Assembly: GCF_002025255.2 (NCBI RefSeq)
Contig: NZ_CP054587.1
Span: forward strand, 1,364,001-1,428,000
Direction: 5' to 3'
DNA from: Halolamina sp. CBA1230
GTDB taxonomy: Archaea > Halobacteriota > Halobacteria > Halobacteriales > Haloferacaceae
Length of the DNA stretch: 64,000 nucleotides
The notes beneath the pieces were generated by a model. The model did no database searches. It had not been told where the DNA came from and worked only from the letters and a program-made list of their open reading frames with translations. Position numbers and translations under genes: made by a program. Shown here piece by piece: positions 28,405 to 61,289 of this stretch. Numbering within the stretch: the stretch's first letter is position 1; every line of letters starts with the position of its first letter.

Positions 28405-28522
28405 TTATCTGGAGTAGTGAGGGGCGATTTCGGCGGTTGGTGGGTGTTCGCTGACTGCGACCGCGACAGCAACGGCGTCTCGATCGTTGGCAACTGAGAC
28501 AGCAACCGCAACAGCATCTCGA

Positions 28523-28843
28523 AGCATGACCACTTGTGACCGCAGGGTGCCGGGCACGAGGCCCGGTTATCAGAAATCAGAGATTTCTGATTGGCAGACG
28601 AGAATCGAAGATTCTCGTCGACGGCACAGCATGGACTCCCCACCCCTCCCCCCGCGCTCGCCACGTTGGCGAGCGCGAGGCGTCCACCGCCACCGCACCG
28701 CCGCGGCTGTCGGCGCGTGACGTGAGTGCCTCCGTGCACGAACGAGCGCGCGAGGGACGAGTGACTGAGCGGTAGCGAAGGAACGAGTCGGCTGGGGAGG
28801 TCTGAGGGCTGTGCGGGGCGGTGCGGTCACAAGTGGTCATGCT
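28523..28843 (+). repeat. Dispersed hairpin element, copy 1
   Basis: Bounded by a perfect 22-bp terminal inverted repeat (28523-28544 and 28822-28843; core ACCACTTGTGACCGC). Inside are three hairpins, each with a 3-nt loop: 28569-28591 (TCAGAAATC stem, loop AGA), 28597-28619 (ACGAGAATC stem, loop GAA) and 28653-28677 (CGCGCTCGCCA stem, loop CGT). A second copy lies inverted at 60817-61120. No transposase is encoded, so it is MITE-like or a structured non-coding element. Confidence 0.75.
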
Positions 28844-28854
28844 CGCTCCGCGGT

Positions 28855-28932
28855 GACGTTCGCGGTCGCGGTAGCGAGGTCGAACACGCAGTCGACGTTC
28901 GCGGTCGCAGTAGCCACGTCGAAGCCAACCGT
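28855..28932. repeat. 39-bp tandem repeat flanking the hairpin element
   Basis: Two consecutive 39-bp units both begin GACGTTCGCGGTCGC and continue with a similar GTAGC...GTCGAA core. Comparable ~39-bp units lie on the other side of the element (28455-28522) and next to copy 2. Confidence 0.6.
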
Positions 28933-46206: not shown

Positions 46207-47286
46207 ATGCACGCTGACGCGGTCGTCCTCGACGTCGACGGGGTTCTGGTCGACGTCGCCGACTCCTACCGACGGGCGATCATCGAGACGATCGAACGGC
46301 GCCACGGCGACACCATCGAGCGCGCGACGATCCAGCGCTTCAAGGATGCCGGCGGGTTCAACAACGACTGGGAACTCACCGACGCGGCGACGCTGTTCGT
46401 GCTCGCCCGCGAGGCAGGCTACTCCGGTGATGCGGTCGAGTTCACCGACGCCATCGCCGCCCACGAGGAGGGCGGGCTCGCGGCTGCCCGCGCAGTCCTG
46501 CGCGAGGCCGCGGGGCGGGAGGGGTTCGACGGTCACGAATCGCGCAGCGATTCGTTAGCCACCGAGGGGCACGGCCCCTCGGGCAACCGGAAGCCGACGG
46601 CTTCCGGTGACAGCCAGAACGCCACGCGTTCTGGCGACGCTGATTCTGTCGAGGCCGAGTGGGACCCCGACGGCGTCAGGGAGACGTTCCAGGCGCTCTA
46701 CCTCGGCACCGAGCTGTACCGCGAGATCGAGGGCGGCGAACCGCCGTTCGAGGCGCCGGGGTACATCCACGACGAGCCGGTCATCGTCGAACCGGGGACG
46801 ATCGAGCGACTGCAGTCGGGGTTCTCGGTCGGCGTCCTCACCGGGCGCCCCGCCGCCGAGGCGGAGATCGCGCTCGAACGGGCCGGCCTGTCGGTGCCCG
46901 AGGAACACCGCTTCACGATGGACGACTGGGCGGAAGGTAAGCCTCACCCGCGCGCGTTGGTTACGCTCGCGGAGCGGTTTGACGGTCTCGAATCGCGTAG
47001 CGATTCGATAGCCAACCAGAACGCTTCGCGTTCTGGTGACGCCGACTCGGTCGTCACAGAGGGCGCGGCTGACAGTCGCCGCGCCTCAGTCGTCTTCGTC
47101 GGCGACACGCTCGACGACGTGCGAACCGCGACGAACGCCGCCGAGTCGGACCCCTCCCGCGAGTACCACGGTGTTGGCGTGCTCACCGGCGGGCTGACGG
47201 GCGAGTCGGGCCGCCGGAAGTACGAGGCCGAGGGCGCGGCGGCGGTGCTCGACTCCGTGAACGACCTGCCCGACCTGCTGGAGTAG
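46207..47286 (+). CDS. HAD superfamily phosphatase (TIGR01548-like) with two in-frame hairpin insertions
   Basis: 359 residues. HAD motif I is [17 protein letters not shown]; motif II lies in [20 protein letters not shown]; motif III Lys in [16 protein letters not shown]; motif IV in [14 protein letters not shown]. The haloarchaeal relatives are ~290 residues long; the excess is explained by insertions of ~36 residues ([12 protein letters not shown]..., from base 46536) and ~20 residues ([14 protein letters not shown]..., from base 46988). Both lie between conserved blocks and keep the frame. The phosphate substrate is unknown. Confidence 0.9.
46536..46635. repeat. In-frame cassette of four hairpins inside the HAD gene
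   Basis: Four perfect inverted repeats in a row, each with a 3-nt loop: 46536-46554 (CGAATCGC, loop GCA), 46562-46582 (CCGAGGGGC, loop ACG), 46586-46608 (ACCGGAAGCC, loop GAC) and 46613-46635 (GCCAGAACGC, loop CAC). All are translated in the HAD reading frame. Confidence 0.85.
46988..47037. repeat. Second in-frame hairpin cassette in the HAD gene
   Basis: Two perfect inverted repeats with 3-nt loops: 46988-47008 (TCGAATCGC, loop GTA) and 47015-47037 (ACCAGAACGC, loop TTC). Stem sequences are the same as hairpins 1 and 4 of the first cassette, with different loops. Confidence 0.85.
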
Positions 47287-53510: not shown

Positions 53511-53900
53511 CTACTCACCTGCTTGGGCGTCGATGTACTCCTCGATTACCTCGCTGGACACGTCGCCCGCACTTGAAACGAAGTACGAGCGCGTCCACAG
53601 CGAGGGGAGGCCGAAGTCGAACTCGTCGCGGAGATGGCGCGAGGAGTAGCCCTTGACCTGTTGCATGATCTTGTTCGGGGCAAGCGTCGGGTCGCCCGTG
53701 ATGAACAAGTGAACGTAGTCGGGGCGAATTGCCAACTCCAGTATCTCTAGCCCGAGTTCGTCGGCTTTCTCCTCGATGAGTTCTTCAAGACGGTCGCGTA
53801 CCTCACCCTCGAGCACCGACTTGCGGTATTTCGGACACCAGACGAAGTGGTACTGGAGTTTGTGGACGGTGGTCCGCTCCCTATCGAACCCACGGGGCAT
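53511..53900 (-). CDS. tnpA: IS200/IS605 family transposase (TnpA, Y1 HUH)
   Basis: About 129 residues (MPRGFDRERTTVHKLQYHFVWCPKYRKSVL...). The catalytic Tyr helix SSAGDVSSEVIEEYIDAQ is present. The HUH motif, normally PDHVHLF, is PDYVHLF here: one CAC to TAC change removes the first metal-binding His. The protein may therefore be catalytically weak or dead. An alternative start at 53924 adds eight residues. Confidence 0.9.
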   Translation of the reverse strand: MPRGFDRERTTVHKLQYHFVWCPKYRKSVLEGEVRDRLEELIEEKADELGLEILELAIRPDYVHLFITGDPTLAPNKIMQQVKGYSSRHLRDEFDFGLPSLWTRSYFVSSAGDVSSEVIEEYIDAQAGE

Positions 53901-60678: not shown

Positions 60679-61289
60679 GTCTGGGTCTCAGTTTTCGGGT
60701 TTGAGTGCGGGCAACAGTGTTTTCGGCGTTCGGAGGGATCGACTTCGGGGACTGCAACCGCGAACAGCACCGCAGGGTTCGGTGTTGTGATCGCCAACAC
60801 GACCGCGGAGCGAGCATGGCCACTTGCGACCGCAACCGCCACGCACAGCCCACAGACCTCCCCAGCCGATTCGCTCACGTCCGTTCGCTCATCCCTCGCG
60901 CTGGTCGCGCCACAGAGGGCGCTCCTGCTTCGCGCCGACAGCCACGGCGGTGCGGTGGCGGTGGACGCCTCGCGCTCGCCAATGTGGCGAGCGCGGGGGG
61001 AGGGGTGGGGACTCTGGGCTGCGCCGTTGACGAGAATCTTCGATTCTCGTCTGCCAATCAGAAATCTCCGATTTCTGATGATGGACCTCGTGTCCGGCGC
61101 CTCGCGGTCACAAGTGGCCAACGATCGAGATTGCTGTTGCCGTCGCGGTTGCTGTCTCAGAAGTCAACGATCGAGATGCTGTCGCGGTTACGGTTTCTGT
61201 CTCAGAACTCTACGAGGGAGACACTGTCTAACCCTCGACCAACCGAGAAACACGAACCACACTCACCAACCACACAAAATCGACCGAAC
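60679..61289. other. Repeat-rich intergenic region
   Basis: 611 bp between citrate synthase and the convergent MFS gene. It holds the second dispersed hairpin element and, at 61121-61235, two degenerate ~46-bp units beginning ACGATCGAGA. ORFs here are repeat by-products. Confidence 0.7.
60817..61120 (-). repeat. Dispersed hairpin element, copy 2 (inverted)
   Basis: Reverse-complement relative of 28523-28843. Ends match as inverted repeats at 16 of 17 positions (60817-60833 and 61104-61120). It has the same three hairpins: 60971-60995 (CGCGCTCGCCA stem, loop ATG), 61029-61051 (GACGAGAATC stem, loop TTC) and 61057-61079 (ATCAGAAATC stem, loop TCC). The part between 60835 and 60960 is conserved at both edges but differs in the middle. 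Confidence 0.75.

Follow-up and report, generated by a model that had tools for sequence, protein, structure and literature searches.

The gene at positions 46207-47286 of the window, by which we mean the whole 64,000-nt stretch of Halolamina sp. CBA1230 analysed here, raises the question of how a chain of DNA hairpins came to lie in frame inside a HAD phosphatase gene. An earlier note on this DNA had reported four perfect inverted repeats with 3-nt loops, translated as about 36 extra residues between conserved HAD blocks. All four were found, with stems of 9, 9, 10 and 10 bp, and the residue figure was right, since the insertion is 108 bp and thus 36 codons long. A second insertion (46984-47040) and a 39-bp piece (47056-47094) in the same gene had been overlooked. 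The features of the gene are:

46207..47286, + strand: host gene, TIGR01548-family HAD hydrolase of 359 aa, from the TIGR01548 profile and a fold match
46531..46638, + strand: insertion 1, 108 bp (36 codons) with four hairpins; starts after TTCGAC, last bases GAC
46535..46555: hairpin 1 of insertion 1, 9-bp stem, loop GCA
46562..46582: hairpin 2 of insertion 1, 9-bp stem, loop ACG
46586..46608: hairpin 3 of insertion 1, 10-bp stem, loop GAC
46613..46635: hairpin 4 of insertion 1, 10-bp stem, loop CAC; its stem CAGAACGC is found 18 times across the genome, the loops varying
46984..47040, + strand: insertion 2, one dimer of 57 bp (19 codons); starts after TTTGAC, last bases GAC
46988..47008: first hairpin of insertion 2, 9-bp stem, loop GTA
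47015..47037: second hairpin of insertion 2, 10-bp stem, loop TTC
47056..47094, + strand: third in-frame piece of 39 bp (13 codons); contains an imperfect hairpin at 47062-47085

The assignment of the host as a HAD phosphatase gene held. Its TIGR01548 match (E 6e-62, 208.7 bits) was above the curated cut-off of 140.2, and the AF2 model of the protein resembled the HAD phosphatase 6iah (Z 22.6, rmsd 2.2, 232 residues aligned). The fold search with this model confirmed the family and gave nothing further.

Insertion 1 was missing in every Halolamina orthologue shown and in 38/38 other aligned orthologues. Its lack in Halolamina and in 35 other haloarchaeal sequences bears out its reading as an insertion; in the congeners the HAD blocks on either side abut directly. 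The identical peptide was looked for in orthologues from distant genera and did not occur. Insertion 2 was missing in the Halolamina orthologues and in nearly all aligned orthologues. In Halorussus aquaticus, an unlike dimer was found at the same point as insertion 2, and in Halorussus marinus a similar peptide whose palindrome was gone. The same target point was thus used in two genera, and the Halorussus site would reflect repeated targeting followed by decay. The third piece is unlike the triloop units, with a near-repeat TC(G/A)GTCGTC on its flanks and an imperfect GGCGCGGC/GCCGCGCC hairpin, and is possibly an older, decayed insertion.

Folded as a single strand, insertion 1 formed exactly the four hairpins (DNA, -45.7 kcal/mol, z -9.8), and it also folded well as RNA (z -9.5). 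In the AF2 model both HAD insertions were low-confidence loops (pLDDT 52-56 and 59-70), while the core was mostly >90, and insertion 1 is accordingly predicted to be disordered.

The four-hairpin chain, described by the earlier note as a distinct design, turned out to be one array of a modular family found genome-wide and across the haloarchaea. We counted 67 arrays of clustered triloop hairpins in the main contig, of which the first 2.8 Mb were read, and the identical cluster detector gave 0-1 on four order-5 Markov simulations, which rules out chance palindromes. With the loop length in the detector set to 4 nt one array was found, and with 2 nt none. The genome-wide stem search suggested earlier was run, and the stem CAGAACGCNNNGCGTTCTG occurred 18 times with differing loops (reversed-pattern control, 0). 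Family arms fit C-R-R-R-R-N-[GT]-C, stems are 6-11 bp long, commonly 9-10, and there are 34 kinds of loop. Tail-to-tail linkers are mainly TGCCA/TAGCA, and head-to-head ones GACGTC/GACATC; 27 TGCCA junctions plus variants stand against about five of the head-to-head type. The commonest dimer, GTC-hairpin-TGCCA-hairpin-GAC, adds GTC and GAC to 51 bp of hairpins, which makes 57 bp in all. The foot is GTC/ATC (other strand GAC/GAT) in 26 of the 42 oriented arrays, GTT also being common. One 107-bp four-hairpin array is present three times with identical stems and loops (C1:1230978, 2325055 and 2651899), so long arrays were copied as one piece.

A strict pattern for one unit type matched 70 of 392 Halobacteriales genomes, in 27 of 95 genera (reversed control, 0), and was absent among about 100 genomes of the phylum sampled outside the order. 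Six plasmid records matched, all haloarchaeal, with intergenic positions in the two looked at. A phage origin was dropped, as none of 50,697 phage records matched the hairpins.

Filled and empty sites could be compared within the genome in repeat R, an intergenic repeat of ~250-420 bp with dozens of copies and a conserved GTCCCCACCCCTCCCCCCGCG stretch. Its copies and their dimers in the window are:

28453-28868: copy of R
28566..28622: dimer of the family inside the first hairpin of this copy, intergenic
60789-61188: copy of R
61026..61082: second intergenic dimer, likewise in an R copy

A dimer occupies the first hairpin of about 10-15 R copies; in some forty others this hairpin is empty. The empty site GAGGTCC^GGCGCTGG (^ marks the junction) becomes GAGGTCC-GTC-hairpin-TGGCA-hairpin-GAC-GGCGCTGG when filled, a gain of exactly 57 bp with no duplication. 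Insertion without target duplication thus holds at the best-resolved sites, which are few; in the HAD gene a 3-bp GAC target duplication and a GAC belonging to the element are indistinguishable. Some of the dimers in R may have been copied along with R, already inside it. R itself had no Rfam match. Its core motif was counted 36 times in its own genome and, among the congeneric genomes, 36 times in G004, 12 in G003, four in G005, two in G006 and not at all in G001 and G002. The second hairpin of R has arms that are very different between copies yet palindromic, with a stem of 7-11 bp in 40/42.

At least ten further genes, as called by a simple codon-model gene finder, carry arrays. Nine were identified by Pfam: a methyltransferase, an S9 peptidase, a SnoaL-like protein, a NUDIX protein, a TruA-type pseudouridine synthase, a Khk/PfkB kinase, an endonuclease V, a histidine kinase and an RHH protein. 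In all six further genes tried, the flanks joined in silico matched uninterrupted sequence in up to six congeners. The elements are thus dispersed and precisely inserted, with empty sites. Insert lengths readable from the alignments were about 45, 45, 51-54, 57, 108 and 114 bp, consistent with multiples of three. Some sites were also filled in one congener (SnoaL in G004, NUDIX in G003, PfkB in G001); the SnoaL locus of G004 had +46 relative to the joined query, like the own genome.

Arrays are depleted in genes, 13/53 being intragenic against 80% coding sequence (P 6e-18). Those with a clear grammar all have one orientation and one frame, encoding a peptide like D-E-[NS]-x-R-x-S-S-A-N-Q-..-S-[DG]-D. 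A typical dimer usually has four of its six frames open, yet a single one is used in genes. In genes as in R, most junctions read GNC^GNC, as judged from about eight sites that were for the most part reconstructed. The constant frame may arise because GNC codons are frequent in these genes, the target is GNC^GNC and the element runs from GTC to GAC.

Taken together, these hairpins probably belong to a haloarchaeal family of palindromic mobile elements that are non-autonomous and REP/RPE-like; we infer their movement from presence and absence in sequences. The module is a hairpin whose arm reads C-RRRR-NN-C and whose loop has 3 nt; as a rule two modules pair into a 57-bp dimer, and chains can form. 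The elements would travel in the form of folded single-stranded DNA, with an enzyme provided in trans to cut it and join it into C^G sites, mostly GNC^GNC. Within genes the inserts would add a polar, acidic and probably disordered loop. They may survive there because the insert is a multiple of three, open in the frame set by the upstream GNC codon, and loop-like. Some copies would afterwards stay palindromic and others would decay under the constraint of coding, the latter as in Halorussus marinus, and the cores would invert relative to the feet, for example by template switching or cruciform processing.

The search for a mover bears on the best-surviving alternative, in which the elements are terminal-only IS200/IS605 derivatives (PATE-like) moved by a resident TnpA, two end hairpins having fused without a core and inserted 3' of a fixed target without duplication. 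The architecture is in principle the same, with end hairpins, no target duplication and a strand-specific target. Terminal-only PATEs of 52 bp are known in Haloquadratum (PMC3119063), and one TnpB gene (C1:2082398-2083777) lies between hairpin dimers. However, these dimers sit within IS605-like end sequence on each side, as if inserted there, and the end palindromes at other Y1 loci are different. Of the nine Y1 loci checked for adjacent hairpins (L166-L174), only a broken relict has them; no arrays adjoin the intact Y1 genes of this genome. Neither does the number of Y1 (PF01797) genes follow array copy number among congeners: G004 has 22 unit-pattern matches with fragmentary Y1 genes only, and G001 has three matches and no Y1 gene. 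A resident Y1 transposase was therefore rejected as the mover, for want of both flanking hairpins and copy-number correlation, and no transposase was found. A REPtron-like gene was also sought. Two genes had arrays on both sides; the convincing one was the TnpB gene, whose ends look like targets, not sources. On this evidence we consider an IS200/IS605 derivation rather unlikely.

The TnpB site (C1:2082362-2083857, L076) encodes a Cas12f1-like TNB domain and adjoins an Mrr_cat fragment. The window has an intact IS200-type (Y1) transposase gene at 53523-53870, and the CCCACGGCTAAAGCCGTGGG palindrome near it is unlike the triloop hairpins.

It is less probable still that the hairpins were selected as regulatory RNA or DNA structures, acting in mRNA stability, termination or protein binding, with their spread being secondary. 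Perfect stems, covariation and the intergenic position of most arrays would suit such a role. Against it speak the patchy presence of the arrays, with empty orthologous sites in congeners, the unrelated host genes, and the many arrays within one repeat or within reading frames. A known RNA family was ruled out, as the 64-kb window had no Rfam match at gathering scores.

The makeup of stems and loops counts for the preferred reading. The stems of 56 distinct units, drawn from many genera, had 98.4% of their cells paired, with two-sided changes at five pairs. The covariation score was 0.403 against 0.132 for shuffled stems (0/500 shuffles as high), and the search pattern leaves two inner pairs free, so that for those pairs the covariation is not circular. 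The stems thus covary. Loops were GNA (other strand TNC) in 95 of 163 hairpins (58%), and all but one of these 95 were closed by a C-G pair (94); the background is 10% for any CnnnG and 49/330 (15%) in other hairpins of the chromosome. The rule fails in about 40% of loops, including 3/6 in the HAD gene. GNA loops are given as the rule for exceptionally stable DNA mini-hairpins by Yoshizawa et al. 1997, as cited in PMC6479982. On one and the same stem, a loop was found alongside its reverse complement (score 150; the reverse scored 7 and the complement 4). Two congeneric genomes have an orthologous array with identical stems, whose second hairpin has the loop TGC in one genome and GCA in the other. 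This array is located at the 3' end of a dnaK-like gene (L279:1460-1610 and L281:1460-1610), which we take to be dnaK from its C-terminal sequence, and the stop codon lies within the first hairpin. 

In a local origin, the palindromes would have arisen where they stand, through template switching during replication at the fork, and would never have moved. Varied stems of perfect complementarity and inverted loops are what template switching would produce, and it may be behind the later evolution of stems and loops. As a source of the elements it is highly improbable, since fixed linkers, an arm consensus and stems common to unrelated sites and genera require copying of sequence.

An ancestral variable loop of this HAD subfamily, to which the unrelated extra peptide at the second site in Halorussus could point, was rejected on the orthologue alignments and has next to no probability: the first insert was in no orthologue, the second was missing in nearly all, and the inserted DNA is a copy of dispersed repeats.

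We return to the preferred reading, that of non-autonomous mobile palindromes, and to its place among known systems. In-frame palindromic insertions are best known from Rickettsia, and the likeness that the earlier note had seen was apt in kind, the elements being short, palindromic, in frame and in unrelated genes. Rickettsia palindromic elements (RPEs, including RPE-4 and RPE-6), described as ~150-bp families (PMC10969869), are likewise short palindromes in many copies, in frame in unrelated genes and tolerated in the protein (PMC10969869, PMC3733652). The trait of an in-frame palindromic repeat in unrelated genes, lacking in orthologues, was found here too. By description, the elements here differ in their triloop chains, alternating linkers and 57-bp dimers, in being archaeal and in being mostly intergenic. 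Clustered hairpins inside genes were already on record: clustered GTAG/CGTC-tagged REPs encode 43-82 residues in Thauera and Rickettsia conorii (PMC3733652). REP insertions that preserve the reading frame are also reported (PMC6006769).

CGTC-tagged REPs resemble the family in being small stem-loops and in their dimers, clusters, intragenic copies and lack of a known transposase. A GTC-like foot at one end and a short tail, unpaired, at the opposite one may also be common to the two. According to the main text of PMC3733652 there are none in archaea. Their stems have 8-9 bp (here mostly 9-10, range 6-11), their loops 4-5 nt (here 3 nt) and their terminal motif is CGTC (or TGTC/CCTC); here the foot is often GTC/ATC, and GTT is common too. 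Head-to-head dimers predominate in them and tail-to-tail ones are rare; here it is the reverse. The tail-side linkers here are TGCCA, TAGCA and TAGCCA, with a register not comparable to the published tail consensus CCA. Given the 3-nt loop and the prevalent tail-to-tail dimers, the published description (PMC3733652) does not apply. GTAG REPs and REPINs share non-autonomous hairpin monomers paired into dimers. They have a GT[AG]G foot, whereas GTC/GAC/GTT and TGCCA flanks occur here, and a RAYT (TnpA-REP) gene flanked by repeats, which was found at none of our nine Y1 loci.

For haloarchaeal REP-like or in-frame palindromic elements, our literature search, mostly outside subscription papers, returned only reports on PATEs, SMRs and MITEs. 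The terminal-only IS200/IS605 PATEs are similar in length (about 52-57 bp), hairpins and lack of target duplication, but the Y1 genes of this genome have palindromes nearby that are unlike the family hairpins in sequence and loop. As for MITEs, which bear the terminal inverted repeats of a known transposon and often come with target duplication, no duplication was seen in R and no parent transposon was recognized, the ends not having been compared with IS libraries. The earlier note knew of no haloarchaeal name, and a comparable class exists, by description only, in the "small mobile repeats" of Haloquadratum walsbyi. SMR-A/B have 80-110 bp, no transposase, no target duplication and an enigmatic mobilisation; copies of one SMR type commonly share >95% identity, and the main targets of SMR-A are PATE/IS605 ends (PMC3119063). 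The elements here are likewise haloarchaeal, short and transposase-free, lack target duplication (57-bp inserts in R) and enter the palindromes of other repeats, although their stems and loops vary greatly and protein genes, too, hold copies. With regard to the SMR-type target, near-terminal PATE/IS605 palindromes, dimers are common in R hairpins and flank one TnpB element at each end. SMRs thus appear to be the haloarchaeal class nearest in behaviour, HqIRS40-43/55 being likened by description, not by sequence. By analogy, the family works like REP/REPIN and RPE elements and matches no described family that could be tested.

Tentatively, a bolder reading can be proposed, in which haloarchaea at large share a mobile system of DNA hairpins that is neither REP/RAYT nor IS605. 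Its parts would be interchangeable mini-hairpins with GNA triloops, their cores flipping against the feet and their stem arms evolving in concert. The dimer, 57 nt from GNC to GNC, would suit insertion at codon boundaries and so spread within genes as well as between them, by a recombinase not yet described.

The setting here is a free-living archaeon with at least 11 host genes, resolved empty sites and congeners of widely different copy number, among which Halolamina salifodinae has many copies. Some haloarchaea are genetically tractable. Together these make two questions testable: what moves palindromic repeats without a transposase, and by what route mobile DNA supplies proteins with new disordered segments. 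Concrete handles on a single-stranded DNA mechanism come from the GNA-loop rule, loop flipping and paired arm changes.

A second linker grammar with the same triloops was also observed. It reads gtt, a CGAGAGAGC-like hairpin, TGATGA/TCATCA, a CGAAAGACGCC-like hairpin and aac. One of its copies is in a broken Y1 transposase gene. The copies are at:

C1:988670
C1:2020577
C1:2082362
C1:2270831
C1:2354714
C1:2651899
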